A stretch of DNA of 45,702 bases from Gemmatimonadota bacterium (lineage in GTDB: Bacteria; Gemmatimonadota; Gemmatimonadetes; Gemmatimonadales; Gemmatimonadaceae): positions 1-45,702 of the forward strand of contig PLLD01000029.1 in NCBI GenBank assembly GCA_003141205.1, read 5' to 3'. The notes under the pieces are model-generated. The model was not told the origin of the DNA. It saw only the letters and a list, made by a program, of their open reading frames with translations, and did no database searches. The stretch's first letter is position 1; every line of letters begins with the position of its first letter. Positions 5,025 through 45,702 of this stretch are shown here, in pieces. Position numbers and translations under genes: made by a program.

Positions 5025-6028
5025 TCGCCCTCGATGTTCAGGTGAACCAGTGCGGCGCGACCGTCCCTATCCAGCCCGCGCACGCGCGCCAGATCCGCGA
5101 CTCGGCGCCGACGGTTCCCTCCTTCCATCACCGCCACGAGGTGGATGGACTCCGCGATGAGGGGCATCTGGCTCGGGATGTTGTTGCGCTGGGCGAGACG
5201 ATCGAGACGCAGCAGCGCCCCCTCCGCGGTCGTCGCGTGGCACGTCCCGATCCCGCCGGGGTGGCCGGTCGCCCACGCATCGAGCAGATCGAGTGCTTCC
5301 GCGCCGCGTACTTCGCCGACCACGATCCGGTTCGGGGATGTCCGCATCGTCGAGCGGACGAGATCCGCGAGGGAGAAGGCCGGCCCCGTTCGGAGCGCCA
5401 GATGGTCCCGCGCCGAGCACTGGAGCTCGACCGTGTCCTCCAGAACGACGATGCGCTCCTCCGGAAAGCGATCCGTAATCTCCCGCACGAGCGCGTTCGC
5501 AAGGGTCGTCTTGCCACTGTTCGTTCCGCCTGCGATGAGGATGTTCTCATGGGCGGCGACCGCCGCGGCGAGGGCACTCCGCTGCCGCGACGTCAGGATC
5601 CCCGCCGCGCAGTAGTCGTCGAGCGTGAAGACCGTGGCGGGAGGCTTCCGGATGTTGAACGCGGGCCCGATCGTCGCCGGTGAAATGAATCCTTGAAGGC
5701 GGCTGCCACGAAAGCGGGCGACCGGAAGTTCCGCCTGGAGACTTGGCGACGACGCGGTCAGCGTTGCATTGAGGCTCGCCGCCGCTGCGTTGAGGAACAT
5801 CTCCACGCGGTGCGCATCGAGCGTGTGCCCGGTCGATACGCGCCCCCGGCTTCGCGTATCGGTCCGAACGATCCCATCGTGCGGATTGAGATAGATCTCG
5901 GTAACATCATCATCGTCAATGGCCGCCATGACCTCGCGGCCGAGAAACCGCGCCATCATCTCGGCGTAGCTGTCCGAGGCGACCGCGGCGGCAGATGCGG
6001 GGCGAAGTTTCGCGGGGACCGGTGGCAT
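5015..6028 (-). CDS. trbB: TrbB/VirB11-like secretion ATPase
   Basis: 337 aa; Walker A IAGGTNSGKTTLANAL, EDTVELQ, GEVRGAEALDLLDAWATGHPGGIGTCHA. Confidence 0.93.
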   Translation of the reverse strand: MPPVPAKLRPASAAAVASDSYAEMMARFLGREVMAAIDDDDVTEIYLNPHDGIVRTDTRSRGRVSTGHTLDAHRVEMFLNAAAASLNATLTASSPSLQAELPVARFRGSRLQGFISPATIGPAFNIRKPPATVFTLDDYCAAGILTSRQRSALAAAVAAHENILIAGGTNSGKTTLANALVREITDRFPEERIVVLEDTVELQCSARDHLALRTGPAFSLADLVRSTMRTSPNRIVVGEVRGAEALDLLDAWATGHPGGIGTCHATTAEGALLRLDRLAQRNNIPSQMPLIAESIHLVAVMEGGNRRRRVADLARVRGLDRDGRAALVHLNIEGEWA

Positions 6029-6098
6029 GGGATCCCCAGTACGTTTGAACGGCGGAAAACATCACATCGGCTGTGTCGCGCGCACTCAGGAGGGACTT

Positions 6099-7367
6099 GT
6101 GGCCGTTTCGGAGCTGCTTGCATCGTCCGCTAGCCGCAGCGCGACCAGCGCCGCCCCCCCGCCTCGCGCCCGGCTGGATGCCATCGACCTCCTCCGCGGC
6201 ATCGTCATGGTCATCATGGTCGTCGACCATACCCGCGACTTCGCCTTCGCCAGCACCCTCCACTTCTCCCCCACCGATCTCACGCAGACCACACCCGCGA
6301 TCTTCTTCACTCGCTGGATCACCCACTTCTGCGCCCCAATCTTCGTCTTCCTCGCCGGAACTGGGGCCCACCTCCAGCGCCTGCGCGGCCGCACCGCCCC
6401 CGAGCTCTCCCGGTTCCTCCTTACCCGCGGGATCTGGCTCATCGTCCTCGAGTTCACCGTCGTCGGGTTCGGCATCCGCTTCGCATGGGACACCGCCTAC
6501 CCCGGCGTCGCCCAGGTGATCTGGGCGATCGGCTGCGGCATGATCATCCTCGCCGCGCTTGTCTACCTCCCTACCTGGGTCGTCGGCACGATCGGCGTCG
6601 CCACGATCGTCCTCCACAACACCCTCGATGTGTTCCCCACGTACGGTTGGCGCGGCCCCCCATCACCCTATCCCACGATGTGGCAGGGGATCTGGACGGT
6701 CCTCCACGGCGGCGCATTTCTCCCCCTCCCCCTCGGCCACCCCTTCCCCGTCATCGTCGTTCTATACGCCGTCATTCCCTGGGCCGGCGTCATGGCCGCC
6801 GGCTACGCCGCGGGCGCCGTATACGCGCTCGAGCCCGCCGCCCGCCGTCGCGTGCTTCTATGGATAGGGAGCGCTGCCACCGCTGCCTTCGTCGTCGTCC
6901 GCGCCATCAACAGCTACGGCGATCCATCCCCGTGGGCCCCCCAGCACTCGGCCGTTTTCACGGTGCTGTCCTTCCTCAATACCACGAAGTACCCGCCGTC
7001 GCTCGACTATCTGCTCATGACCCTCGGGCCCGCACTGCTAGCGCTGGCCGCGTTCGACCAGGTTCGGCCCATCAAGCTTCTCACGCCCCTGATCACATTC
7101 GGCCGCGTCCCCCTCTTCTTCTATCTGTTACAGTGGTACGTCGCGCATGGCATCACGATCGTGGCATCGCTACTGGCGCACAAGCCAGTGGACTATCTCG
7201 TCTGGCGCACGCTGCCCCCGCCTACGCCGGGCCCCGACGCGGGATTCAGCCTGAGCGCGACCTACCTTCTCTGGCTCCTCGCGATCGTTGTGCTCTACCC
7301 GCTCTGCGCGTGGTTCGCCGGGGTCAAGCGCCGCCACCGCGACTGGAGCTGGTTGAGCTACCTGTAG
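6099..7367 (+). CDS. DUF1624 / heparan-alpha-glucosaminide acetyltransferase-like membrane protein
   Basis: ORF opens at 6027, but GTG at 6099 has a strong SD (CAGGAGGGACTTGTG); LDAIDLLRGIVMVIMVVDHTRDF motif and multiple TM segments. Confidence 0.75.
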   Translation: MAVSELLASSASRSATSAAPPPRARLDAIDLLRGIVMVIMVVDHTRDFAFASTLHFSPTDLTQTTPAIFFTRWITHFCAPIFVFLAGTGAHLQRLRGRTAPELSRFLLTRGIWLIVLEFTVVGFGIRFAWDTAYPGVAQVIWAIGCGMIILAALVYLPTWVVGTIGVATIVLHNTLDVFPTYGWRGPPSPYPTMWQGIWTVLHGGAFLPLPLGHPFPVIVVLYAVIPWAGVMAAGYAAGAVYALEPAARRRVLLWIGSAATAAFVVVRAINSYGDPSPWAPQHSAVFTVLSFLNTTKYPPSLDYLLMTLGPALLALAAFDQVRPIKLLTPLITFGRVPLFFYLLQWYVAHGITIVASLLAHKPVDYLVWRTLPPPTPGPDAGFSLSATYLLWLLAIVVLYPLCAWFAGVKRRHRDWSWLSYL

Positions 7368-7386: not shown

Positions 7387-8910
7387 TCAGACGGCGTCGG
7401 CCAGCGCCGTGAAGCTGAAGTCCTCGATCATCATCGGCGGTACGATCATCGGCACTCGCGGCCAGCGCGCTCCCTGCCCCAGCGGCGGCCAGGCGAAGAA
7501 CGTCCGGAACTCCCTCGGCATCGGCGGCGTCTGCCCCATCGGCACCCGTTGCGGCACGCCGATCATCTTCACCTTGTTGAACACGAAGAACGGCGACTCG
7601 ATGAAGCGATAGTTCTGCACCGGGTGATCGATCTTCCCATCCTTGATGTGGAAGCACCCGTCGCGTGTCATCCCCGTCATCGTCCCCGTCTTGAAGTCCA
7701 CCACGGACACGTCCGAGAAACGATTGACGTAAATCCCGTCCGCGCAGGCGGCAATCATCTCTTCGATCGTCGCCGTGTGCGTCCCCGGCACCGGCTTGAG
7801 ATGCACCGAATAGGGCTGCTCGGTCGCCGTATTCCCCATCTTCAGCGAGTAGTAGATATTGTACGCCAGGTGCTGGAGAACCCCGCCCTCCACCCAGGTG
7901 CTGCTGGGGAGCGGCAAGCCCGCGATCCCGGTCCCATTGGGCTCGAAGAACGGCGCGAATCCCCCTGCCGGATCGGCCGGGTCCGACACCATCGTCAACT
8001 GCGGGTCGAAAACACGCAGTCCGATCTTGTTCTTCTTGCCCGTGTCCGAGTGAATCGAGAAAGGCGTCCGCCCATTGTCCGAATCGTACGCATCGAACAT
8101 TGGCGCCATCCGCCGCACCAACTGCGCCACCGCCGCAGGCCCCAGGATCGCCGTCCGGCGCCCCGGCTCGAGCGCCACCGGCCTGCGCCCCTTGTTGGCA
8201 AGATCGATCGCCCCCTGCACCACCGTGCGCGGCGTGATCGTGCTCCAGTCTCGGCTCGCCTGCCCCGACCACCCCGACGCCGTCCCGTCCGCCGTGCGCG
8301 CCGTCACCGTCAGTTCGCAGTCGGTCTCCCGCACCCACGCCGTCATCCCGGGCTGATACATGTACAGCGCCGACCGCGCCGTGAGTCCCACGGTTGCCGA
8401 GGCCACCAAGTCCGCTCCCTTGAACTGCTCCAGCACCTGCGCCGCGACCGCGCCCGGTGCCGCATCCATGGCCGCCACCGTGCCATCATGCCAGAGCGAA
8501 ACCGGCAGATACTCCTTCTTGTCGTACGTGTGGTACTTGGGATCGTCCGGGTCGTCCGGCTCCTCGTCCTCCGCCAGCGGCAGCGGCGTCGCGATCGCCG
8601 TCGCCTGCTCCACCACACGCCGCAGCGTCGCGTCGTCGCGCTGGTTCGTCCCGATCGTGACCGGCAGCCCGCTGCCGAACTTGGATTCGAACGAGACGCT
8701 GAGCTGATCGTCATCCGTGCTACCCAACACACGGCCATTGCCTACCGTGGCCGTGGCGCGCGCCGTGTGCTCGATAATGACTCCCTCCGAGCGCGAGCGC
8801 ACCATCCCAAGCAGCTTCTCCGCCAGCGCCGTTGCCTCCTCGCGCGTCAGAACCGGGCTCGCATCGGGGGCGGATAGCAGCGACAGCGGTCGCGATCGGC
8901 GGTCACTCAT
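7387..8910 (-). CDS. PmbA/TldE-like TldD-family protein
   Basis: 507 aa; TldD/PmbA-type C-terminus (GTMTGMTRDGCFHIKDGKIDHPVQNYRF); no HExxxH; no signal peptide seen. Confidence 0.85.
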   Translation of the reverse strand: MSDRRSRPLSLLSAPDASPVLTREEATALAEKLLGMVRSRSEGVIIEHTARATATVGNGRVLGSTDDDQLSVSFESKFGSGLPVTIGTNQRDDATLRRVVEQATAIATPLPLAEDEEPDDPDDPKYHTYDKKEYLPVSLWHDGTVAAMDAAPGAVAAQVLEQFKGADLVASATVGLTARSALYMYQPGMTAWVRETDCELTVTARTADGTASGWSGQASRDWSTITPRTVVQGAIDLANKGRRPVALEPGRRTAILGPAAVAQLVRRMAPMFDAYDSDNGRTPFSIHSDTGKKNKIGLRVFDPQLTMVSDPADPAGGFAPFFEPNGTGIAGLPLPSSTWVEGGVLQHLAYNIYYSLKMGNTATEQPYSVHLKPVPGTHTATIEEMIAACADGIYVNRFSDVSVVDFKTGTMTGMTRDGCFHIKDGKIDHPVQNYRFIESPFFVFNKVKMIGVPQRVPMGQTPPMPREFRTFFAWPPLGQGARWPRVPMIVPPMMIEDFSFTALADAV

Positions 8911-10553
8911 CGGACGCGGCTCTCGATTTGGACGACGTTGAGCTCCTGGACGTGCCCGGCGGGCGCGCGAATGGGCTGTACCATCTGCATCATCCCCTCC
9001 CCGACCTCCGCTTCGTGCACGTACGATTGGACCGAGCTCTCATCGCCCAGCGTCGTGAGCGATTTCCAGAACTTCGCGGTGCCGAACTGCACGGCCCCAC
9101 CCGCGAAACGGCGCGTGATCTGACCGTGCTTCACCTCGAAGAGCATCGCCGGAAAAAGCGTCCCGCTCGTCAGCTGCTGATCCGAAAAGGCGTCGCTCAC
9201 TCCGCGCATCAATAGCCCGTTCCCAAGCTCGCGCGTCAACGCATCGAGCGACGCTCCCGCCGCATCCGCGTGCACCAGGAGCGATGACGCGGTCCCGACC
9301 GGAGCCTTTGCCGCCATCCACGCGACCGCCGATCCGTGCGCGCGTATCGGCATGCCGCGCGACGTGTACCACGGGACGAGGGTCGCAGCCGAGCCGCGCG
9401 TGGCGAAATAATCCACGACAGCTCCATGCTGAATCACGGGGAACGCCTCCGTCGCCACCCCTTCATCGTCCCAGCGCGCGGCGCCGAGGTGCGGCGGCGT
9501 CCGGTCGGCCGACACGGTGAGCGCGGGCGAAAACATCGGGCGCCCAAGAATCGTCGCCGGGGGCGCCAGGAAGCTCGTCCCGCCGGTATCTGCGGTCAGC
9601 CCAAGAACGCGATCGAGCTCGAGCGCTGGAGCCAGCGTCGCGCCGAGTATGGCCCCAATCGACGCACCGTCAAGGACGGCGGGGTAGCGACCGACCTCGA
9701 CGCTCACGATCGGGTAGGCGAGCAGACGGGTCGTCTCTTCAGCGATGGCCTTGATCCGCTCCTGCAGCGCCGATCCCTGCGTGATCTCGAAGCCCGCGCT
9801 CTCGGGGGCGATCTCGGTCACCGGCAAATGCGCCGGCCGGCGGACGTTGGGCTCCGCATCGACCGTGACGCGCGGCCGGGCCTGAGCCAGCCGCTGCGTG
9901 ACGAGAGATCCCTCGGTCGATGCAAAGACGCGCGTCTCGGACTGCCAATAGAAGCTCGGTTGCGTCTCCGCCCCGAGTGCGCGGCTGGTCGCCTCCATGT
10001 ACGCGCCGAGCATGTACGCGTGCTCGTCCGGCGATACCGAGAAAGGATCGATCTTGACCGGTGTCACCCACTCCCCCGTGACGACCGGCGCCGCGACGAA
10101 CTCCGGCGCGGGACCGCTCACCTTGGCCAGATCGCGAGCGCGGCCGGCGGCCCGCCGCGTGGCGCCCGCCACCCCATCGACCGTCGGGTCAGCTCCCGAT
10201 GCGAACGCCCATCCCCCATCGACGCGGACGCGAACCCCGTACGAGTAATCGAACCCAAGGGAGCTGATGGGCGGTATGTCGGGCCGGTGATAGAAGTACA
10301 TCATGTCGAGCATCCGCCGGTTCGCGATGCGGATGTCGGCGTACGACGCACCCGCACCCCGCGCCGCATCCATCGCGGCGAGCGCCAGTTTGCGGAGCGT
10401 GTCCGCGTCGACGAGGTCCGGAAGGAGCTCGGCGACAGGCCGGGCCGACCGGGCGGGGAGCGCGCCGAGGACTCCGGGACGCAATCCGATCCCGACGCCG
10501 GCGAGGGCCACCGACGAACGGGCGAGAAAATCTCGCCGACTATACGCTGACAT
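8907..10553 (-). CDS. TldD-like protein with Tat signal, putatively lacking the metal site
   Basis: 548 aa; MSAYSRRDFLARSSVALAGVG Tat motif; GRYPAVLDGASIGAILGATLAPALELDRV and DDEGVATEAFPVIQHGAVVDYFATR align to TldD. Confidence 0.85.
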   Translation of the reverse strand: MSAYSRRDFLARSSVALAGVGIGLRPGVLGALPARSARPVAELLPDLVDADTLRKLALAAMDAARGAGASYADIRIANRRMLDMMYFYHRPDIPPISSLGFDYSYGVRVRVDGGWAFASGADPTVDGVAGATRRAAGRARDLAKVSGPAPEFVAAPVVTGEWVTPVKIDPFSVSPDEHAYMLGAYMEATSRALGAETQPSFYWQSETRVFASTEGSLVTQRLAQARPRVTVDAEPNVRRPAHLPVTEIAPESAGFEITQGSALQERIKAIAEETTRLLAYPIVSVEVGRYPAVLDGASIGAILGATLAPALELDRVLGLTADTGGTSFLAPPATILGRPMFSPALTVSADRTPPHLGAARWDDEGVATEAFPVIQHGAVVDYFATRGSAATLVPWYTSRGMPIRAHGSAVAWMAAKAPVGTASSLLVHADAAGASLDALTRELGNGLLMRGVSDAFSDQQLTSGTLFPAMLFEVKHGQITRRFAGGAVQFGTAKFWKSLTTLGDESSVQSYVHEAEVGEGMMQMVQPIRAPAGHVQELNVVQIESRVR

Positions 10554-10596: not shown

Positions 10597-12069
10597 CTAC
10601 CGGCCGGAGGACACGTCAGAAATCGATGGCGATGCCGACGTCGGAGCGGCCGACGCCTGGCGCTTCGCCTCCGCGACCAGATACTGCACGTCGGAGGTCA
10701 GCAGCTTCTCGACTTCCGCGTCGTATCCAATCGAGATGTGCCGCACGATCCCCTTCCCATCGACAACCACGAAGGTCGGCGTGGCATCGATCGGGAACGC
10801 CGTCGCGCTGGGATTATCGCGCGGCAACGCCCCATTTTCCTGCGTCTTCACCTTTTCGCCCGCCCAGAGCGCGATCGCAAAATCGTAGTGCTTGCGGTCG
10901 ACGTAGTAATGCGCGAGATGCTGCGCTTCCTCATCCGGCGAATACTCGGTCGTACCCCAGAAGCCATCGGTCTGCGTGACGTACCAGACTTCGACGTTGG
11001 TGGGATACGCCTTGTGGATCCGCTCCATTCCCGGAAGCGCCATACGGCAGGGGTGGCAATTGTACTCGCCGTACTCGAGCAGGCGAATCTTGCCATCCGC
11101 CAGCGTCTGTGTACGCGCACCGGGCGCCTCTTTCGATTCCGTGACTGGCGCCGACACGTTGTACCAATGGTTGGCGGTGATCGCCGGTGCCGGCTGACCC
11201 AGATGTGCCGTCAGCTGCACCGCCGATTTGGCCATGTAGGTGTAAAACCGACTCGTCCAGAAGTACCCCGAATCGCGCGCGATCTGCTCCGGGCTGGCGG
11301 CCGCCAGCGGCAGCATCGAGGCACCGATCGAGTCGATCCTGGCGCGGCCACCCGGCATCCCGGAGAGAACATCCGCGAGCATGGGGAGCGGATTGTTCAT
11401 AAAGACATCCTGGCGCTCCTCAAACGGGATCTCCGTCACCAACGCGATCGCCTTCGACAACTGCGTGACGACCTCCGGTCCATGCCCTGTCACGTAGTAG
11501 GCTTGGCCCAGCGCCATGCGTCCCAAGAACTTCCACATCGCGTCGACGGGCAGCGCGTCCAACTCCGCCATGTAGCGCACCGCCGTCTGGATCCGAGCCG
11601 CATCGTCCGGATGGGCGAACGCCCTCGTCGCGACGACCAGCGTATACGCCTTGTTAGACGCCGACAGTCCTTTTGTCCCCAGGCGCTCCGCGAATTGCCG
11701 CTTGGCGATCGAGTCCTTTCCTACCGCGACGTACAGCTTCCCCATCGGGTCGAGCTCGAGACCCTTGACGGGCGCGGTTTGCAGCGACTCGATCCACTTC
11801 CGCGTCTGCTCGCCGACCGCGGGACCGACAAAGTCGGGACGTATGAGCGTACGATAGTCCGCCATCGGTGCAAGGACATCGTCAACGTACAGGTCGAGCC
11901 CCCACCCATACTCGGCCGGCGTCGGCTGCCGTGTAGTCGCATCCGCGACCGTCTGCGCTTCCTGCGCCCGTCCCGGTGCCGGGAGCCCGGCCACGAGCGC
12001 CGCCCCGAGGAGAGTGCCGAAAACGATATGCCCGCACGAGCGCTGGCTGAACCGATTGGGTAACGACAT
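10597..12069 (-). CDS. TlpA-like thioredoxin-fold protein, exported
   Basis: 490 aa, signal peptide, YGEYNCHPCRMALP (CxxC) and cis-Pro-like IDATPTFVVVDGKG. Confidence 0.8.
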   Translation of the reverse strand: MSLPNRFSQRSCGHIVFGTLLGAALVAGLPAPGRAQEAQTVADATTRQPTPAEYGWGLDLYVDDVLAPMADYRTLIRPDFVGPAVGEQTRKWIESLQTAPVKGLELDPMGKLYVAVGKDSIAKRQFAERLGTKGLSASNKAYTLVVATRAFAHPDDAARIQTAVRYMAELDALPVDAMWKFLGRMALGQAYYVTGHGPEVVTQLSKAIALVTEIPFEERQDVFMNNPLPMLADVLSGMPGGRARIDSIGASMLPLAAASPEQIARDSGYFWTSRFYTYMAKSAVQLTAHLGQPAPAITANHWYNVSAPVTESKEAPGARTQTLADGKIRLLEYGEYNCHPCRMALPGMERIHKAYPTNVEVWYVTQTDGFWGTTEYSPDEEAQHLAHYYVDRKHYDFAIALWAGEKVKTQENGALPRDNPSATAFPIDATPTFVVVDGKGIVRHISIGYDAEVEKLLTSDVQYLVAEAKRQASAAPTSASPSISDVSSGR

Positions 12070-12198: not shown

Positions 12199-13611
12199 CT
12201 ACGGCGTCGCCGTGGAGGTAAGGCAGCCCTTGTACTCCGGATTCGTAACTGTGATCTGGTTGGATATGAGCCCCGCCGGGGTCGGCAACGTAATGCTCAC
12301 ATCCGAGCCGTAACTGGCGTACCCTGCACCGACCAACGGGTGCGTGGCGTCGTATGGCCCGTTCGGATACACCGTCGCGGGGTCCCGTCCGTACTGCCGC
12401 AACAGACGGCGCATGTCGCCCAGCCGCACCCCGGTTCCGAACAGCCAGAAGGCGCGCTCGCGAAACAGGAAATCCACCTGCGCCGCCGCGGGAAGCGTCG
12501 TCGTCGAGTCAGCCAGAAGGGGTACCTCCGACATGGTCGGATCGAAGGTCACATGCGTGTCCGCATCATCGGTCCGCAAGGCGCTGAGGTCCGTCACCCA
12601 CGTGGGATCGCCCCGCTGCTGCGCCGCTTCGGCCTGAATGAGGCGCGCTTCCACGCCGGTCGAGAGAGCGATATCTGTCAAATCGTTCTCGAACTTCGTG
12701 TCGAGGATCCACTGGCCGCCGTCACCCGCCGTTAGCGAGCTATCGACCACGACGCGCGGATCGTTGGCCGAGGCGTAATTCAGCCCCGCTCCTCCTTCGT
12801 GATCTCCGACGTTGAACATCCGATAGAACGGTTGCCCCATCGCCGCCGCAATAAAGGTCCCGTTCGGGGGGAAAATATTTGCGGCCGCCACCAGCGAGAT
12901 ATTGTACACAAAACTCGTCGGTACGGTAGCCACGGCCGTATCCGCCGCTGCGTATTGGCCTCGGCCGAGGAGCGCCCTCCCTAACCCTACGCGCGCCAGC
13001 CCCAGAACCGTGGGGTCCCCATTCGCACTCGCGATGGCCGAGTCGAAGTGTGCCTCGGCGGTTGCCAGCATCGAATCGGTGGTGAGCGGGGTCCCGTAGG
13101 CGTACTGCCCCCCGGGGAGAGCGCGATCCAAAGGGGTACCGGCGCAGAAAGTCTCGCCCAACATCAACTCGGCGTATCCGGCGAGCGCGTACGCCTCGCC
13201 GACCATCTGCTGGCCGCTGGCCGGCTCGTATTGCGACAGGAGAGGAATCGCGAGCAAAAGACCGGAGTGGGCTTGCAGGATGTTCCCCCAACCCACGTCC
13301 GAGTACAGCTCGTTACTGCCGCCCGGGACCGCGGTGAATCTCGCATCATAACCCGCACCGAACGAAAACCCGCTCTGGGTATAGTCGTCCGACATCAACT
13401 CGCTCCACATCGTCGTGCCGTAAAAGATGGAGCCGTTCGCCAGGAACAGCTGCCCCTTCGCCCCCTTGAAGGCGGCTTCCGCGCCCGCCTGGCTTTTCAG
13501 CGTCGTACTCGACGTGACGCCAGACGGCGCCGGCACGCTCAATACATCGCTCGGCTTGCACCCGGCCACACCGAGGGCGGCGAGGATCAGCGTCCCACAT
13601 CGTATGCGCAT
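12199..13611 (-). CDS. SusD/RagB-like lipoprotein
   Basis: 470 aa; lipobox LGVAGC; SusD-like C-terminus RERAFWLFGTGVRLGDMRRLLRQYGRD; directly downstream of SusC. Confidence 0.88.
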   Translation of the reverse strand: MRIRCGTLILAALGVAGCKPSDVLSVPAPSGVTSSTTLKSQAGAEAAFKGAKGQLFLANGSIFYGTTMWSELMSDDYTQSGFSFGAGYDARFTAVPGGSNELYSDVGWGNILQAHSGLLLAIPLLSQYEPASGQQMVGEAYALAGYAELMLGETFCAGTPLDRALPGGQYAYGTPLTTDSMLATAEAHFDSAIASANGDPTVLGLARVGLGRALLGRGQYAAADTAVATVPTSFVYNISLVAAANIFPPNGTFIAAAMGQPFYRMFNVGDHEGGAGLNYASANDPRVVVDSSLTAGDGGQWILDTKFENDLTDIALSTGVEARLIQAEAAQQRGDPTWVTDLSALRTDDADTHVTFDPTMSEVPLLADSTTTLPAAAQVDFLFRERAFWLFGTGVRLGDMRRLLRQYGRDPATVYPNGPYDATHPLVGAGYASYGSDVSITLPTPAGLISNQITVTNPEYKGCLTSTATP

Positions 13612-13614
13612 CGG

Positions 13615-16600
13615 CTAAAGCCCCAGGTTGAGCCGGACCACCCAGTACCGCGCCAACGGCACCGCGCCCTGATCCGTTCGTATGTCGTTGTTGACTGCGA
13701 ACCCGCCGGTGTTAGGAGTCGCTTGCACGTTGATTCCGAAGGCATTGCTCACTTCGGGGTCAGGTCCGGTATACCGTGTCCACAGCGCCAGGTTCCGAAC
13801 TGCGCCCGTAATGCTGAGGTTTTGCACGCGGAGTCTGTGTACGATCGAAAGCGGGAGCGCATACGTGAGCGCGACTTCCCGAACCCGAACGAAGGAGCCG
13901 TCCTCCGCATCCAGCGACTCGAATCCCCCTTGAGTGTTCGCGACGTCACGGGCCTGCAGGAAGAGCGGCGCCCGCGGATCGTTCTCCCCTTGGGAGTTAC
14001 CCACGAAGGAATTGCTGTTATACGCCGCCTCGGTGTTGGCGATCTTGTAGCCGCCGCGGTAATCGAGCAGCCCGCTGAGCGTCACCGCCCCACGGAAGAG
14101 ACCCAGGTGCGTCGAGACGGACGCTTCCCGCGTTGGGATCGTCGCACCCTGGAACGTTACGGAATCCGCCAGCGTTACCTCATTCTGCTCGATAATCCCG
14201 TCGTGGTTGGCATCCGCGTACGTCGCGTTCTTCGCCCAGATCCCGTACAGCGGGTATCCGACCGCCTGCCGGTACTGCAGGCCGATGAAGGCGTACGTCG
14301 TCTGCGCCGTCACCCCCGGCGCCAGCTTCACGAGCGTGTTGTGCGTTATGGATCCGTTGAGCGCGACGTCCCATGTGACCGACCGGTTTTGCACGATACC
14401 CACGTTCAAAGTGCCCTCGACCCCCGAGTTCCGCACCTCGCCGATGTTCTCCTGATATGTCAGGCCGGCGACGCCGCCGAAGCTCTCGCCAAGATTGAGA
14501 TTGACGAGCGCGTCGTTTGTCGTCTTGGAGTAGCCGGTGATCTCGAAGCTCACCCGGTTCCCCCATGCTCCGATGTCCGCGCCCCCTTCGAATTCGGTGG
14601 AGCTTTCCGGGCGAAGATTCGGATTTCCGATCCAGTTGACCTGTTCGGCGCTCCCTCCACCGGGAAGGGGAGATGCCACCGCGCTATACAGCTGCAACGC
14701 GGCCCCGTTGTCGGGTTGCACACCCGATTCGCCAAACGCGCCACGCAGACGCAGCGTCACCGGTCCCTTGTCGAGCGCCAGCCACGACACGCTCGCCTTG
14801 GGATAGGCCGCGGTGCTATATGCCCCGCCGAATCCGCTGCCCGCATCGATACGCAGGGCGCCCGTCAGGAACAGACGGTCTTCGAAGCTCAGCTGCTCCT
14901 CGCCGTACCCGCCCATCGTCGCTTGTCGTGTACCGATCTGGGCTACGATAGGATTCGTTGCGCCGTTCAAGGTCAGGTTCGTCGCTGTGATCCCGATCGC
15001 CTGCGCCGATTGCCCCGCCACTCGCGTATCCACGATCTGCAATCCGGCCGATGTCACGGAGCGGAGCGCACGGGTAAGACTGGCCGTCGCCGTCCCCCGT
15101 AAATCGACGGAGTACACGTCCGTGGTCAGATTCGTTACCGACAGCGCGGGGCTTTCGGAGACGTACAACGGATTCGCGAGCGGGTAGTCGATATTGGTGT
15201 TCCGCTGCGATCCATGGTCCAGTCCCACGGTGGCGTGTCCGACGAACCATCCGGTCGGACGCCAGTTGGCGGTGAGCCCCCCGGTGACACGATCGGTGTT
15301 CTGCATCCCGATCTCGCTCATTTCCGTGATCGGCGAGGAGGGCGGGCCGCCGCCGTTGCTGGGGGCGTCATACCCCCAGAAATGCGCGGGATCGTCCAGC
15401 CCGAGTCCGTTGAACACGCCGAAGAACAGCGAAGCTGCGTCCGGCGTCTGCTGATATGTCGACAGGTAACTCCCCGTCGCGGTGAGATCCGCGGTCCGTC
15501 CCAGCTGTATCGCCGTGTTGACCCGTACCGACCGCTGCTGCTCGCTGTTCGCATTGAGCGCCGCGGCCGGAAGTCCCAGGTTTGCGGTATCGTTCAGCTC
15601 CCTGAACACCGGCGGCATCTGGATGAAGCCGCGCTCGTTCGACAGTCCACCCGAGACGAAGTACCGCACCGCATCCGATCCGCCGCTCACGGACAGGTCG
15701 TATTTGCCCCGATTTCCCGTCCCGAAGATCGTTCGGGACGCGCTGTTGAGCGGGTTTTCTATTGAGACGCTGTCCACGACGCACCCGCCACTCGTCGCTA
15801 ACGCGCCCGCCGTATAGAAGAACTGGCCGGTCTGAAGCGCACAATCGATCGGAGTGTTGGTCCCATCCGTGGTGTGACCGAAGCTGTAATAGTTGTTCCT
15901 GAAGGTGGCGGGCATGTCGCTTTCCGTCTGCTCGGCTGACATCCTCCATTGGGGTCTCCCCGCCGTCCCATGCTTGGTCGTGATCACGATCACGCCGTTT
16001 GCGGCATCCGTGCCGTATTCGGTCGACGCGGCCGGTCCCTTGAGGATGTCGATCGTCGCGATGTCGTTGAAATCGATGTCGTTGAGGCGCGTGGGACTGG
16101 GATGCGTCCCCATGCCATTGGTGTTATTCGCGAACCCTCCGATGTACTGGCTGATATCGCCGCCCGCTGCGTTGTTCTGTCGCACACCGTCAACGATCAG
16201 GATCGGGTCGCTCTGCAGCACGAGGCTCGATATACCGCGGATCCGAATCGCCTCCCCGGCCCCCGTCATTCCGCTCGTCTCGAGCACGGTCACCCCCGGC
16301 GCCCGCGACGAGATGAGATCCGTGAGGCTCGTGATCGGTGCGGTGGGCGTGATCGAGTCGGCGTTGATCGTCGAGATGGTGTTCCCCACTTCGTACCGCC
16401 GCTGCTGCCCTACCGCTGTCGTCACGACCTCATCCAGCTTGGTCGGTGTCGCCACGATCGCGAAATCGAGCGTGCTCTTCTGATCCGCCGCGACCGTCAC
16501 GTCCTTCGTCAGCGATTGATACCCGACACGCCGGGCGGTCACGTGATAGGTACCAGGGGCAACCCCCGCGATCGTATATGCTCCCTCGCCATTCGTCAGC

Positions 16601-17115
16601 GCGCTGAGAGCCGAGCCCTCGACGCGGACAGAGACCTGGGAGAGGGAGCCCTTGAGCGTACCATCTATGATCCGCCCCGCGATCGACCCCGTACCCTGAT
16701 AGGCCGCCCCATACGCCCGATCAGGCACCGTCGGGCGCAGCGCGACACGCGTCCCGCCGGCCGCGACGACGGGCTCGACCAGCGTGCCCCGCAGCACAAC
16801 CCGAAACGCGTCGCCGACCGGCATCGACGCGGCGTCGAGCGACACGACGCTCTTGAGGGGCAGCTGGTTCGGGTCGTAGCTCAACGCGAGATGCGCCGCC
16901 GCCGCGATCGCGCCGAGCGCATCACCTAACCGCACGTTCACGAGATACAGCGTGATCGGCCGCTGCAGAACATCGCCCCCCGGGGAGCGGGTCTCCGGCC
17001 CCGACGGTGTGGGCAACGCGACCTGCACCACCTCCATCCCCTGCCCGGAGACGGCCGGCGGTCCCGCCACGCCGTACAGGGCCACGATCGCTGCCACGCC
17101 AATGCGGAGCCTCAT
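13615..17115 (-). CDS. SusC/RagA-like TonB-linked outer membrane protein with STN and carboxypeptidase-regulatory domains
   Basis: 1166 aa; plug DPILIVDGVRQNNAAGGDIS, DILKGPAASTEYGTDAANGVIVITTKHG; N-terminal STN-like region. Confidence 0.93.
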   Translation of the reverse strand: MRLRIGVAAIVALYGVAGPPAVSGQGMEVVQVALPTPSGPETRSPGGDVLQRPITLYLVNVRLGDALGAIAAAAHLALSYDPNQLPLKSVVSLDAASMPVGDAFRVVLRGTLVEPVVAAGGTRVALRPTVPDRAYGAAYQGTGSIAGRIIDGTLKGSLSQVSVRVEGSALSALTNGEGAYTIAGVAPGTYHVTARRVGYQSLTKDVTVAADQKSTLDFAIVATPTKLDEVVTTAVGQQRRYEVGNTISTINADSITPTAPITSLTDLISSRAPGVTVLETSGMTGAGEAIRIRGISSLVLQSDPILIVDGVRQNNAAGGDISQYIGGFANNTNGMGTHPSPTRLNDIDFNDIATIDILKGPAASTEYGTDAANGVIVITTKHGTAGRPQWRMSAEQTESDMPATFRNNYYSFGHTTDGTNTPIDCALQTGQFFYTAGALATSGGCVVDSVSIENPLNSASRTIFGTGNRGKYDLSVSGGSDAVRYFVSGGLSNERGFIQMPPVFRELNDTANLGLPAAALNANSEQQRSVRVNTAIQLGRTADLTATGSYLSTYQQTPDAASLFFGVFNGLGLDDPAHFWGYDAPSNGGGPPSSPITEMSEIGMQNTDRVTGGLTANWRPTGWFVGHATVGLDHGSQRNTNIDYPLANPLYVSESPALSVTNLTTDVYSVDLRGTATASLTRALRSVTSAGLQIVDTRVAGQSAQAIGITATNLTLNGATNPIVAQIGTRQATMGGYGEEQLSFEDRLFLTGALRIDAGSGFGGAYSTAAYPKASVSWLALDKGPVTLRLRGAFGESGVQPDNGAALQLYSAVASPLPGGGSAEQVNWIGNPNLRPESSTEFEGGADIGAWGNRVSFEITGYSKTTNDALVNLNLGESFGGVAGLTYQENIGEVRNSGVEGTLNVGIVQNRSVTWDVALNGSITHNTLVKLAPGVTAQTTYAFIGLQYRQAVGYPLYGIWAKNATYADANHDGIIEQNEVTLADSVTFQGATIPTREASVSTHLGLFRGAVTLSGLLDYRGGYKIANTEAAYNSNSFVGNSQGENDPRAPLFLQARDVANTQGGFESLDAEDGSFVRVREVALTYALPLSIVHRLRVQNLSITGAVRNLALWTRYTGPDPEVSNAFGINVQATPNTGGFAVNNDIRTDQGAVPLARYWVVRLNLGL

Positions 17116-17137: not shown

Positions 17138-18193
17138 TCATTCGTGCGCCTGCCGGAGGGTCCGGGCAGTGAATTGGGCGTCTGTACCCGGCCGTGCCGC
17201 CGAGTGCGCCCGCCGCCGGATCGTCACCATCCGGCCGACGCGCTTGTATTCGGCGCCGATCGAGAGAGTGACCGCATCCAGGATGTTGTCGACCGGCTCG
17301 TCCCCGAACGTCGCGGTCAACGCTTCCCCGTCGAGCGCCGAGTCAGCCACCGTGATCTGGATGTCGAAGGCGCGCTCGAGCGCCGAGACCACGTGCGGCA
17401 GCGGCGCCTTGTCGAAGGCGAGGCCACCCTGCAGCCACACGAGAGCGCCCGCCACATCGGCGGCGGTTTGCACGACGATCCGCCCGCTGCGATCGACGAC
17501 CGCCGCCGTTGCCGCCGCGAGCACCGGCGCCGTCCCCATGCGCCGTCCGAGCGGAGCGATGGCAACCCGTCCTTCCGCCACCGTAACGCGCATGGCCGAG
17601 TCGTCCCCGAACGCACGCACGTCGAAGACGGTCCCGACATCGCGCGCGATCCCCCACGCCGTGCGCACCGTGAACGGGCGTCGCGCATCATGGGCGACGG
17701 CGAAGTACGCCTCCCCATCCAGCGTGACCGCACGATGGTGCGCGCCCGCGCCGCCCGCCGCGACGGTGAGCCGACTCCCCGGCGCCAGCGTGATGCTGGA
17801 ACCGTCGCCGAGCGACAAGGCGAGCCGGTGCCCCCGCGGCGCGACGTAATCCCGCGTCGAGAACGCGACCGGCGGAGCGCTCAACCGGCGCATGAAGAGC
17901 GAGATCCCGACGCCAACGACGAGAGTGGCCGCGATGGCCGCGATACGATAGCCGGCAGCCGCAGGGCGCCGCCGCGCGCGCAAGCGCACGAGCAGCGTAT
18001 CCGTATTGACCGCGCTCCGCCGCTCGCCGCCGAGTGCCTGCTGCGCGGTATCGAGGCGGGCCAGCAGGGCGGCACCCTCCGGATCCTCCGCCAGCCACGC
18101 CCGCACATCGGCCTCTTCCGCCGCCGTTCCCCGCCCCGCCAACACCCGGCGGAGCGCCTTTCGCATACGTACGAGATCCCGCATACCCCTCAT
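17138..18193 (-). CDS. FecR-like anti-sigma factor
   Basis: 351 aa; single TM, FecR core and C-terminal STN-like domain; between ECF sigma and SusC. Confidence 0.9.
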   Translation of the reverse strand: MRGMRDLVRMRKALRRVLAGRGTAAEEADVRAWLAEDPEGAALLARLDTAQQALGGERRSAVNTDTLLVRLRARRRPAAAGYRIAAIAATLVVGVGISLFMRRLSAPPVAFSTRDYVAPRGHRLALSLGDGSSITLAPGSRLTVAAGGAGAHHRAVTLDGEAYFAVAHDARRPFTVRTAWGIARDVGTVFDVRAFGDDSAMRVTVAEGRVAIAPLGRRMGTAPVLAAATAAVVDRSGRIVVQTAADVAGALVWLQGGLAFDKAPLPHVVSALERAFDIQITVADSALDGEALTATFGDEPVDNILDAVTLSIGAEYKRVGRMVTIRRRAHSAARPGTDAQFTARTLRQAHE

Positions 18194-18260: not shown

Positions 18261-18896
18261 TTAGACGAGCCCCGCGAGCTGCTCGCGCAGCCGTTTCAAT
18301 GCCCGGCCGATCCGCATCTCCACCGTCCGCACGGCGACCCCCAATCGCTCGGCGATCTCCGCATGCGAATACCCCTGCCACCGGAGAGCGTAGGCCGCAC
18401 GGCTCGCCTCCGGGAGCTGATCGATCGCCCAGCGCACCGCGCTATCCAGCTCCGCCGCGCGCACCGTCTCCTCGGCCTGCGCGCCGGCATGCAGTCCGTC
18501 GGCGATCAGCCGCTCGTGCGCGACCGCGCGCGACAGTCGTACGTCACCGCGGGCGCGCCGCATGGCGTTCCATGAGCGATTGCGCGTGGCGCCGTAGAGG
18601 TACTGCCGAAGCGTCCCGGAGACCGACAGGGTCGCGCGCAGCCGCCAGACCGCGTAGAACACATCCTGCACGACCTCGGCGGCCGTTTCCGGCGAGCCGG
18701 TCAATACCGCCGCGTACGCGGACAGCGCATCCGCGTGCTGGCGCACGATCGCGTCGAAGGCCCGCTCGTCGCCGGATCGCAGACGCGCGATAAGACGTCG
18801 CTCCTCCGTGAGAAGAGCAACGGCCTCGCCAGCCATCGGCGGCGGACCTGGGGATGCTGCGTCGGGATGCACTGCCGAGCGACGGGCCATGCGCAT
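18261..18896 (-). CDS. ECF-family RNA polymerase sigma-70 factor
   Basis: Sigma region 2 (FDAIVRQHADALSAYA...VVQDVFYAVW) and region 4 (YSHAEIAERLGVAVRTVEMRIGRALKRLREQL). ORF extends to 19133; start uncertain (18896 or 18836). Confidence 0.9.
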   Translation of the reverse strand: MRMARRSAVHPDAASPGPPPMAGEAVALLTEERRLIARLRSGDERAFDAIVRQHADALSAYAAVLTGSPETAAEVVQDVFYAVWRLRATLSVSGTLRQYLYGATRNRSWNAMRRARGDVRLSRAVAHERLIADGLHAGAQAEETVRAAELDSAVRWAIDQLPEASRAAYALRWQGYSHAEIAERLGVAVRTVEMRIGRALKRLREQLAGLV

Positions 18897-18999
18897 GCGG
18901 TACCGGTCGGTGGCGATCCACCCACGGATCGCCGTGAAAAGCAGGTCATCGATCGAACGCGGCCCATAGATAGTGCGCAGCCGCGCGGGATGCAACGGG

Positions 19000-19039
19000 A
19001 AAGAAAAGGGGGGAGGCGCCGTGGCGTGGCGCCTCCCCC
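19000..19039 (-). terminator. Rho-independent terminator
   Basis: Perfect 12-bp stem GGGGGAGGCGCC/GGCGCCTCCCCC (19009-19020 / 19028-19039), 7-nt loop, followed on the minus strand by CTTTTCTTTCCC. Confidence 0.85.
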
Positions 19040-19063
19040 ACTGATCCTTCCTGGACCCCGGTC

Positions 19064-19294
19064 CTACTTCCTGAGCGCCTCCGGATGCTCCCGCGGGTCG
19101 ACCCAGTGCTTCCCGGTCTTCGCCATCACCCACACATCGCTCACCTCACGCAGATCCGGTAACACCTCACGCCCCGTCAGGAGAGCCACCTTCACCGCGT
19201 GTCGCTCCGCCTGATGTGCGAGGCGCTTGTCCACCTTCTCACTCGCCACCGTCTTCGTGGGAACCACGGGATGCTTCTTCCGGGACCGGCTCAT
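19064..19294 (-). CDS. Small conserved-looking hypothetical protein (76 aa, MSRSRKKHP...)
   Basis: ATG 19294 preceded by AGGAGGGTGGTCG; followed by a strong terminator. Confidence 0.7.
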   Translation of the reverse strand: MSRSRKKHPVVPTKTVASEKVDKRLAHQAERHAVKVALLTGREVLPDLREVSDVWVMAKTGKHWVDPREHPEALRK

Positions 19295-41850: not shown

Positions 41851-43326
41851 TTACGCCACCTTGGTGCTAGTCAGACAGCCTTTATAGGAAGGGTTCGGAT
41901 CGCTGACGCCCGCCGACGCGGTCGGCAGCGTCAGGCTCACATCCGTCCCGTAGCTAGGAAGTGGTGCCGGTAGCCTCGGGTTATTGGCATTTGGATACGG
42001 ACCCACCGGAAAGACTGTGCTCTGATCCCGGCCATACTGCCGAATCAATCGCCGCATATCCCCCAGCCGGGCACCGGTTCCGTATAGCCAGAACGCGCGC
42101 TCGCGGAACATCACGTCGACCTGCGTTGCGGCGATGGCGCCCGTCGTCGAATCGGTTGGCAGAGCAGCCTGGAATACGACCTTCGTGTCCCCCGAGTCTG
42201 CCCGCAACGCATTGAGAGCGTCGGCCCACGCACCGGGCTGATTCGCGTTCAGATCCCCTTCCGCCTCCATCAGCCGCGCTTCGATCCCCGATGCTAGCGG
42301 GATATCCGTAGACGGGTTGCCGAACTTCACCGGGTAATACCACACGCTATCGGCGCTGCCAGCGTAGAATGCATCACACGTTACCGCGACGGCCGTGCTC
42401 AGCACGAGGCGCGGATCCTGCGCCGACACATAGTCGAGTCCGTTGCCACCTTTCCCATCGGCCACGTTCAGCCATCCGCAAGTATGTCCCTGGGCCTCTT
42501 CATCGTACACATTAAAGGCATTCGGCCCACCGCTGGTGAACGCGCCTGGCTCGAGCTCGACGTTGTACACGAAGCTTGTCGGCACGCCGCTGAGGGCCGC
42601 CGTGGCCTGCGCGAATTGGCCGCGATCCAGTTCTGCCCGAGCGAGTCCTACTTGCGCAAGCCCCGTGATGGTGGGGTCGCCCCCCGCGTGGGCGGCCGCG
42701 GAATCCAGATCGACTTCGGCCGTCGCCAGCAGGGAATCCGTGGTCAGGGGAGTGCCATATTGGACCCCGCCTCCGGGCAGGAGGCGCCCGAGCGGAATTC
42801 CCGCACAATAATCTTCCGCGATCAGCAACTCGGTATATCCGATTAGCGCAAAGGCCTCGCCAACTTTCGATTGACCGCTCGCGGGCTCGTATTGCTCGAG
42901 CCACGGCAGCGCGCTGAGCAGCGTCGTCCGTCCTCCCAGCAGCGACTCCAGCCCTCCATCCCCGCCTTCCACGTAGCCGTCACCGCCGGCTGTGATCCGC
43001 GCATCGACGTTGGCGCGATTGGCAGCCTCGGAGAAAAAGGTCCATTCGAATTCGTCGCCAAGCAGACCACTATACCCGAGTACGGCGGGGAAGCCTTGCG
43101 CGTACCCCGCAAAGATTTGTGCGCGTCCCTGCGCCAGAAGTAATTCCGCGCCACTCTGACTTTGGTATGCGCTGCTCGCGGTAACCCCCGAGGGGGGCGG
43201 GACACTCAGTACATCGCTCGGTCGGCAGCCGATCAGAAGCGCGCCGAGCGCGGCCGCGACAGCCACGCACCGGAGTCCCGCGCCCCGCGCACCCGAAGAC
43301 CGCGGTGCCCCGCTAGTTGCCCACAT
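41851..43326 (-). CDS. SusD/RagB-like lipoprotein (second copy)
   Basis: Lipobox LGALLIGC then RPSDVLSVPPPSGVTASS; RERAFWLYGTGARLGDMRRLIRQYGRD. ORF extends to 43503; ATG 43326 preferred. Confidence 0.88.
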   Translation of the reverse strand: MWATSGAPRSSGARGAGLRCVAVAAALGALLIGCRPSDVLSVPPPSGVTASSAYQSQSGAELLLAQGRAQIFAGYAQGFPAVLGYSGLLGDEFEWTFFSEAANRANVDARITAGGDGYVEGGDGGLESLLGGRTTLLSALPWLEQYEPASGQSKVGEAFALIGYTELLIAEDYCAGIPLGRLLPGGGVQYGTPLTTDSLLATAEVDLDSAAAHAGGDPTITGLAQVGLARAELDRGQFAQATAALSGVPTSFVYNVELEPGAFTSGGPNAFNVYDEEAQGHTCGWLNVADGKGGNGLDYVSAQDPRLVLSTAVAVTCDAFYAGSADSVWYYPVKFGNPSTDIPLASGIEARLMEAEGDLNANQPGAWADALNALRADSGDTKVVFQAALPTDSTTGAIAATQVDVMFRERAFWLYGTGARLGDMRRLIRQYGRDQSTVFPVGPYPNANNPRLPAPLPSYGTDVSLTLPTASAGVSDPNPSYKGCLTSTKVA

Positions 43327-43327
43327 T

Positions 43328-45702
43328 TTAGAACCCCACGTTGAGGCGCACGACCCAGTACCGCAACAGGGGCACCGCCCACCCGTTCTCGCGTATGTCG
43401 TTGTTGACGATGCTCGTGTTGGACGTCGCGTTGAGCTGTGTGTTGTAGCCACCGGAATTCGCGACTTCCGGGTCAGTGCCCGTGTAGTGGGTCCAGAGCG
43501 CAAGGTTGCGAACGGCCCCTGTGACGGTCACGCTTTGCGTGCGGAGGGCCCGCACGACGCGCCGCGGGAGCATGTACGTCAGCGACAGTTCCCGAAACCG
43601 TACATAGGACGCGTCCTCGTAGAATTGGGCCGACGTCGTGTAGATCCCCTCATAGAATAGGGCGGTGCCCCCGACATTACGTGCCTGCTCCCACAAGGGC
43701 GCCGTGGGGTCGTTCGACGCACGATCGCTTTGCGCGTTGCTCGCCTCATTGTACCTGGTGGTGTTCAGCAGGCGAAAGCCGCCACGATAGTCGATGAGCG
43801 CACCGACACTCAGGGCCCCGTGCCACAAGCCCAGATGCGTGCCCAGCGATACTTCTTGCGTCGGCAGGCTCGAGCCGGCGTAGCTCAGGGTATCGCCCGG
43901 CGTCACCTCGCTCAGATCGACGATCCCGTCGTGATTCAGGTCCGCGTACTGCACCTGCGGACCCCAATACCCATACAGGGGATATCCGGGCGCGAACCGA
44001 TACGTGGCGTAATTGCCATAGAATTGCTGCGAGAGCACGCTGGGAGCCAGCGTGACCAATTTGTTGTGATTGATCGATGCGTTGACCGAGACGTCCCACG
44101 TCACGAGTCGGGTCTGCACGACGGTCGCCGTCAGCGCGCCCTCGACGCCGACGTTGCGTACCTCGCCCACATTCTCTTCATAGGAGTAGTTACCGAGCTC
44201 CCAGCCGGTGCCCGTGCCTACCAGCGCATCGTGTGTCGTCTTCGAGTATCCGGTGAGCTCGAAACTGAGCCGATTGCCCCACAGACCGATGTCGGCTCCT
44301 CCTTCGTATTCGCTGGACCGCTCCGGCTGGAGGAACGGGTTCGCGACATTGGTGATCCCTACAGCGGCCGCGGGCCCGCTGCCGGACCACACCGCGGTGG
44401 GGGCGAGCAGCTCCAGGGCCGATCCATTGGGCGGCTGCACGCCCGATTCACCGAACGCCCCACGCAACCGCACCGATGTCCCGCCGGAGTTCAACGCCAG
44501 CCACGAGATGCTTCCCTTCGGATAGGTCGCCGTGCTGTAGGAGCGTCCGAATCCGCTGCCGGCATCAATCCGCACCGCCCCCGTGAGAAAGAGGCGATCG
44601 GCAAGGCTCACCTGCTCCTCCACGTACCCGCCGAGGGTCGCCTGACGGTCTCCGAGCTGCGTGACCGTCGGACCGACCGCTCCATTCAACGTGAAATTGG
44701 TCGCCGTAATGCCGGACGCCGTGACCGTGGTCCCCTGCATGCGCCTGTCCGCCAGTTGCATCCCCACGGAGGTCAGCGTCCCGATCCCATGCGTCAATGC
44801 TGCGGTGACAGACCCCCGGATATCGACCGTGTAGATATCGGTCGTGCCGGTCTCGATGCCGAGCTGCGCGGGAATAAATGAGGCCACTGACGCGACCTGC
44901 GGAAGAATTGCCGTCTGATCGCGCAGGGAGCCGTGGTCGACACCCACCGTCGCGTGACCCACGAACCACGACGCGGGTCGCCAGTTGGCCGTCATCCCGC
45001 CCGTTAGACGGTCGGTCTGCTGACTCGTCGGATTGCCGAATTGGTACACGGGCGACCAAGAGGGATCAGTACCGTAACCATATGTGTCGGCAGAGTCCCG
45101 CACGGAGGGCGCCTGCACCATCCCCTGAAACAGATCCTGCACGGCCGGCGTGGTCTGATAAGTCGAGAGGTAGGCTCCGGTGACGGACAAGTCGGCTGTG
45201 GAGCCCAGCCGGATGGCCGTGCTCGCTCGGACCGAGCGCTGGTCTTCACCATTGGGATTGAAGACCGAATGCGGCAATCTCGCGGCCGTCGCCTGGGCGA
45301 GGAACGCCTGTGGCATGCGGAGAATTCCGGTTTCGTTGGACAGTCCGCCGGAGATGTAGTACCGCGCGGCTTCGGAGCCGCCGCCAACGGACAAGTCGTA
45401 CTTCGCCCGGTTTCCCGTGCCGAAGATGGAGTAATCCGGGTTGTTGAGCGGGTCCCACGTCGTGACGCTGTCGGTGGCGCAGTTGCCAGTGACAGAGCCG
45501 TAGCCGCTCAGGAATGGCATCAGCGGGCATTGCACGGGCGTATTGGCACCATCGGTTGTATGGCCCCAGCTGTAGTACAACGCCGGGAAGCTCTCCGGGA
45601 TGGCGCTTTCCGTCTGCTCGGCCGATGCGTGCCACTGAGGCTGCCCCGTCTGTCCATGTTTCGTCGTGATCACGATGACGCCGTTGGCCGCATCCGTCCC
45701 AT
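43328..45702 (-). CDS. SusC/RagA-like TonB-linked outer membrane protein (second copy, N-terminus beyond window)
   Basis: Frame continues to the edge with TDAANGVIVITTKHG; barrel repeats similar to the first SusC. Confidence 0.92.
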   Translation of the reverse strand, partial: GTDAANGVIVITTKHGQTGQPQWHASAEQTESAIPESFPALYYSWGHTTDGANTPVQCPLMPFLSGYGSVTGNCATDSVTTWDPLNNPDYSIFGTGNRAKYDLSVGGGSEAARYYISGGLSNETGILRMPQAFLAQATAARLPHSVFNPNGEDQRSVRASTAIRLGSTADLSVTGAYLSTYQTTPAVQDLFQGMVQAPSVRDSADTYGYGTDPSWSPVYQFGNPTSQQTDRLTGGMTANWRPASWFVGHATVGVDHGSLRDQTAILPQVASVASFIPAQLGIETGTTDIYTVDIRGSVTAALTHGIGTLTSVGMQLADRRMQGTTVTASGITATNFTLNGAVGPTVTQLGDRQATLGGYVEEQVSLADRLFLTGAVRIDAGSGFGRSYSTATYPKGSISWLALNSGGTSVRLRGAFGESGVQPPNGSALELLAPTAVWSGSGPAAAVGITNVANPFLQPERSSEYEGGADIGLWGNRLSFELTGYSKTTHDALVGTGTGWELGNYSYEENVGEVRNVGVEGALTATVVQTRLVTWDVSVNASINHNKLVTLAPSVLSQQFYGNYATYRFAPGYPLYGYWGPQVQYADLNHDGIVDLSEVTPGDTLSYAGSSLPTQEVSLGTHLGLWHGALSVGALIDYRGGFRLLNTTRYNEASNAQSDRASNDPTAPLWEQARNVGGTALFYEGIYTTSAQFYEDASYVRFRELSLTYMLPRRVVRALRTQSVTVTGAVRNLALWTHYTGTDPEVANSGGYNTQLNATSNTSIVNNDIRENGWAVPLLRYWVVRLNVGF

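Follow-up and report, generated by a model that had tools for sequence, protein, structure and literature searches.

A TldD-like protein encoded in a Gemmatimonadota contig of 45,702 nt (hereafter the window, one contig of a 2.9 Mb assembly) lacks the HExxxH metal site of its family. It belongs to a clade that shows clade-wide loss of the metal ligands, a retained fold, purifying selection and linkage to a SusC/SusD gene cassette. We lean towards the reading that this protein (TldD') and its partner (TldE') work together as an exported pseudo-metallopeptidase and bind peptides on behalf of a SusCD system for uptake or sensing; export as a dimer, peptide as the ligand, the absence of catalysis and the SusCD role are what we infer from these observations.

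TldD' (548 aa; 8907..10553, minus strand) begins with a putative Tat signal region (residues 1-33; 10455..10553, minus strand) made of SRRDFL and a hydrophobic stretch, which the TIGR01409 model recognizes at 17.1 bits against a cut-off of 16.7, a margin of 0.4 bit; the Arg pair is conserved both in metal-less relatives and in those that keep HExxxH. Residues 288-314 read GRYPAVLDGASIGAILGATLAPALELD in the translation of the 8907-10553 minus-strand ORF. The metal site of E. coli TldD consists of H262, E263 and H267 plus Cys454, and HExxxH was called strictly conserved in the alignments of the structure paper (PMC5810440). In an alignment of a profile of TldD' and its paralogues with the E. coli TldD structures (5NJC/5NJF/5NJ5), the active-site helix is gap-free, which makes G304, A305 and P309 of the stretch G304-A305-T306-L307-A308-P309 (9627..9644, minus strand) the counterparts of H262, E263 and H267; the column survey agrees, and the replacement by G, A and P put forward in the original prediction is thereby borne out. 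The following E312-L313-D314 (9612..9620, minus strand) is kept as the counterpart of the E. coli scaffold residues E270/D272, with E in 19/24 and D in 22/24 metal-less proteins.

The argument drawn from the missing Cys ligand fared less evenly. TldD' indeed has no cysteine, but this is weak evidence because the Tat-type TldDs of the phylum use Asp: the Gemmatimonas TldD carries Asp in place of Cys as the third ligand (PMC5810440), and D-x-[KR]-G-[QE]-P occupies this place in 151 of the 155 long HExxxH proteins. Judged from the alignment, the informative change is rather Ala515 (9009..9011, minus strand), which is neither the Cys454 of E. coli nor the Asp of Tat-type HExxxH relatives. Both features of the M103 motif that we tested in TldD', HExxxH and a third Cys/Asp ligand, are thus absent. 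A shifted or relocated HExxxH was also considered and none was found in TldD', TldE' or the metal-less relatives. In the three homologues nearest to TldD' (60-64% identity) the corresponding stretch is ATLTP, ATLLP and ATLMP, which disposes of the concern that close homologues might keep the motif through a shifted alignment, and at identities of about 36% or less HExxxH proteins keep the motif in the same column.

Membership of both proteins in the PmbA/TldD superfamily (Pfam PF01523, PF19290 and PF19289) is certain. TldD' matches PF01523 (PmbA_TldD_1st) with 21.4 bits (cut-off 20.9) and PF19289 (PmbA_TldD_3rd) with 62.8 bits (cut-off 22), the middle domain staying under its cut-off, and TldE' matches PF19289 with 102.6 bits. 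Confident AlphaFold models (pLDDT 83.8 for TldD' and 86.9 for TldE') were compared with the PDB using Foldseek: the best match of the TldD' model is E. coli TldD (E 1e-35, TM 0.80 by target length), the top two matches being its peptide-bound H262A and E263A mutants, and TldD chains rank above TldE chains, while the best match of the TldE' model is TldE 6J6A. Single-sequence PDB searches returned no TldD match, but the profile search did. The NCBIfam TldD model matches 37 of 37 aligned relatives and the PmbA model 9, with TldD' itself reaching just 30 bits on the former, far under the model cut-off. TldD' therefore likely belongs to the TldD side rather than the TldE side, and the possibility that it is actually a TldE is disfavoured by the PDB profile, NCBIfam and fold rankings.

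The partner, TldE' (507 aa; 7387..8910, minus strand), shows no evident signal peptide, and its start shares 4 bases with the TldD' stop. It has no HExxxH, as had been pointed out, which is normal for a TldE. The TldE' partners have lost residues that are invariant in the partners of HExxxH TldDs (positions of R275, E279, R281, R352, W354 and Y400), and both subunits therefore changed together.

We compared 24 metal-less proteins, from several Gemmatimonadota genera, with 160 HExxxH proteins. The original prediction had called for a survey of Tat-type TldD homologues, and it reveals that the metal-less site is common to these 24 proteins instead of being a one-off: none of them keeps both His, with H at position 304 in one and E at position 305 in four, whereas HExxxH is kept in 160/160 proteins of the other set. 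A locus added later (G322 C17) retains the second His alone. Similarly, R421, M422, D485 and H528 show little or no variation among the HExxxH proteins but are relaxed in the metal-less ones. Cleft residues outside the metal site have drifted as well, and in the subclade of the window Val or Asn replaces the clamp Lys (K456 in E. coli). The metal-less TldDs contain no invariant His or Cys and TldE' no newly conserved one, so a replacement metal site built from these residues was rejected.

In a set of 40 related genomes, all TldDs read, apart from those of the window's own genome, kept HExxxH. A scan of genome contigs with the TldD' sequence alone gave no match, but an alignment-based scan did; it covered one genome per species in 85,462 species, and among the best 79 loci kept, on which the census outside Gemmatimonadota rests, metal-less members occur in Gemmatimonadota only (HOG34, LS_ISSM_2_bin.92, which is G322 in this text, and a Longimicrobiales genome). 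Searches within the class and the phylum brought in G043, G130 and further genomes of the Longimicrobiales genus, and a metal-less TldD is present in at least 14 of 399 sampled genomes, a lower bound given that three candidates were scored per genome. A tree of 42 proteins, built with most motif columns excluded, places a single branch between metal-less and HExxxH proteins (support 100/100), and when a distant HExxxH TldD was added a single metal-less clade was not rejected (p-AU 0.31). A single loss of the metal site is the simplest reading, though not proved. In Longimicrobiales (L150, L263-L266) two metal-less TldD' genes stand in tandem and are followed by one TldE'; many Hymenobacter loci (L166-L202) harbour tandem arrays of at least two Tat-type TldD/TldE pairs, HExxxH being kept throughout.

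The metal-less genes are under purifying selection. Nei-Gojobori estimates of dN/dS lie at about 0.11-0.36 overall, with 0.22 for a Longimicrobiales pair, 0.36 for a HOG34 pair and about 0.11-0.27 within the window's genome, where dS near 1 makes the values rough. A pseudogene or an assembly error, which the state of the source assembly (fragmented and 82.6% complete) might invite, is given almost no weight: the frames are full-length, dN/dS is well under 1 and the same loss recurs in several genera and in separate assemblies, dN/dS and conservation together ruling out a pseudogene. At the level of sequence, the statement that TldD' is not an M103 metallopeptidase is well supported, because the two His and the Asp/Cys ligand have disappeared throughout a clade whose genes are constrained and whose fold is retained. 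The same three lines of evidence support the earlier proposal that the pair may be a non-metallopeptidase, either a peptide-binding pseudoenzyme or one with different chemistry.

TldD' is part of a cassette whose usual order is ECF sigma, FecR, SusC, SusD, thioredoxin-like protein, TldD' and TldE', all on the minus strand in the window. The ECF sigma factor (listed ORF 18261..19133, the real start probably lying further in) has Sigma70_r2 and r4_2 above the Pfam cut-off, and the FecR-type anti-sigma factor (17138..18193) has FecR and FecR_C. The SusC/RagA-type TonB-dependent outer-membrane protein (13615..17115) matches TIGR04056 with E 2.6e-108 and 363.7 bits, slightly below the cut-off of 368.25, and has Pfam Plug and CarboxypepD_reg above cut-off. 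The SusD-like lipoprotein (12199..13611), 3 bases after SusC, was assigned by gene order and by homology to the SusD of a HOG34 cassette, which itself clears Pfam SusD_RagB by only 0.1 bit; Pfam gave no match for the window's protein. The third accessory gene of the cassette (10597..12069) encodes a thioredoxin-like protein with CHPC, identified by sub-threshold thioredoxin matches and by the presence of the same gene in six sister cassettes of the genome; PDB profile searches with this and the SusD-like protein returned no match. Among the loci compared, which include L047, L048, L050 and L143, the window copy and those of three sister cassettes retain the CxxC, which is gone from three other cassettes of the same genome and from one HOG34 relative; the protein may be a second cassette member losing its active site. 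Elsewhere in the window, a further SusD/SusC pair (41863-45700, minus strand) runs past the contig end, 1785-6028 (minus strand) carries type IV secretion or conjugation genes with a VirB4/TrbE-type and a VirB11-like ATPase, and a membrane protein with a heparan-alpha-glucosaminide N-acetyltransferase-like domain (6027-7367, plus strand) adjoins the cassette.

The window's genome has 27 matches to PmbA_TldD domain 3. Among its TldD-side genes with a readable site, 11 lack HExxxH and two have HESIGH (contigs C121 and C239), and the importer plus TldD'/TldE' cassette is present in about ten copies; neither this expansion of paralogues nor the link to SusC/SusD had been part of the original prediction. 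SusD and/or SusC lie directly upstream on the same strand of 9 of the 11 metal-less genes; on C340 a thioredoxin-like gene and FecR/sigma are upstream with SusC/SusD on the other side, and on C342 a sigma gene alone was seen near the metal-less TldD. Overall, SusC/SusD are upstream on the same strand of 18/22 evaluable metal-less genes vs 5/107 HExxxH genes, one fragment of an HExxxH gene being excluded from the count (Fisher p = 5e-14, descriptive only since the genes of one clade are not independent events). Three of the five linked HExxxH genes belong to one Hymenobacter cluster, the other two are weak matches and none has SusD. Two loci added later (G322 C17 and G130 C376) are both metal-less and SusCD-linked, and G043 shows the order TldD', TldE', thioredoxin-like, then sigma, FecR and SusC. 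For the Longimicrobiales metal-less genes no SusCD match was found in the stretch read, a finding that counts against the importer role.

A possible sequence of events can be outlined for the preferred reading. TldD' would be exported via the Tat pathway and would probably carry TldE' along as a folded pair, because TldD' has a Tat signal and TldE' shows none. In the periplasm the two would form a hollow TldD/E-type shell that, having neither metal nor catalytic Glu, would no longer cut and would probably bind extended peptides, its chamber holding them for, or passing them to, the SusC/SusD importer encoded in the same cassette, which would be under ECF sigma/FecR control. The E. coli TldD/E shell holds peptides through backbone pairing and without sequence preference, and dead E. 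coli TldD mutants were crystallised with peptide (PMC5810440); since the H262A and E263A structures contain bound peptides, a dead TldD can still hold one. For a naturally inactive shell encoded next to an importer, peptide binding and hand-over would be the simplest role, although binding by TldD' may differ or be lost because cleft residues have drifted and the clamp Lys is Val or Asn. We advance only tentatively the broader idea that Tat-exported dead TldD/E shells are a standing SusC/SusD accessory, a periplasmic peptide-holding chamber duplicated one per importer.

That the pair is still an enzyme, a hydrolase or transferase using non-metal residues such as the Ser/Thr after the old Glu (T306), seems unlikely to us. 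Position 306 is Thr or Ser in 24/24 metal-less proteins, but also in 145/160 HExxxH proteins, so the residue may be inherited, and neither TldD' nor TldE' contains a newly invariant set of acid, base or nucleophile. The lack of any new invariant His/Cys or obvious catalytic set in either subunit favours, as far as conservation can tell, the pseudoenzyme reading. About as improbable is a periplasmic sensor or adaptor that would report a ligand to FecR/sigma, or scaffold SusC, and carry no cargo: most cassettes do open with ECF sigma and FecR genes, but these precede many SusC genes generally, and the window's genome also has sigma/FecR by a SusC in a stretch with no TldD pair. Pseudoproteases often regulate active relatives, and HExxxH paralogues with Arg-pair signals exist in the same genomes (G000, G322 and G130), so TldD' or TldE' might swap partners with the cell's active TldD/E and regulate it. 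We consider this less probable still, given that every TldD' is encoded beside a TldE' of its own and that TldE' is altered alongside TldD' at positions invariant in the partners of HExxxH TldDs.

Compared with E. coli TldD/TldE (MEROPS M103; 5NJ5, 5NJC and 5NJF), the pair shares both subunit folds, the adjacent gene arrangement and the scaffold Glu/Asp of the active-site helix, but differs in the loss of HExxxH and third ligand, in its Tat signal and in the neighbouring SusC/SusD, FecR and ECF sigma. The nearest relatives outside the metal-less set are the Tat-type HExxxH pairs of Gemmatimonadota and Hymenobacter, with Asp as third ligand, which have the same Arg-pair signal and pair architecture at about 30-36% identity; unlike the metal-less pairs, they carry the motif in 160/160 proteins, are rarely found by SusC and, in the loci read, never have a SusD gene upstream. 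TldE/PmbA subunits and homodimers (1VL4, 1VPB and 3QTD) likewise have the TldD/E fold without a catalytic site, whereas the profile, NCBIfam and fold rankings place TldD' closer to TldD, and it comes with a TldE partner of its own. Bacteroidota-type SusCD loci under ECF sigma/anti-sigma control show the same order of sigma, FecR, SusC, SusD and accessory genes, the accessory genes here being the thioredoxin-like protein and the metal-less TldD/E pair. We came across no account, in the open-access literature searched, of TldDs forming a metal-less clade, of TldD/E encoded in SusCD cassettes or of a peptide-holding chamber as the substrate-binding component of a SusCD system.

Loss of catalysis in the TldD/E family is already known for TldE. 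Here a TldD-side clade has lost HExxxH; purifying selection constrains its genes, and most of them accompany outer-membrane importers. The label 'metallopeptidase TldD-related' would mislead for these genes. The association suggests peptides as the cargo of one SusCD subclass, and a probably dead natural TldD/E offers a way to ask what the hollow shell does besides cutting, in a family of still uncertain overall function.
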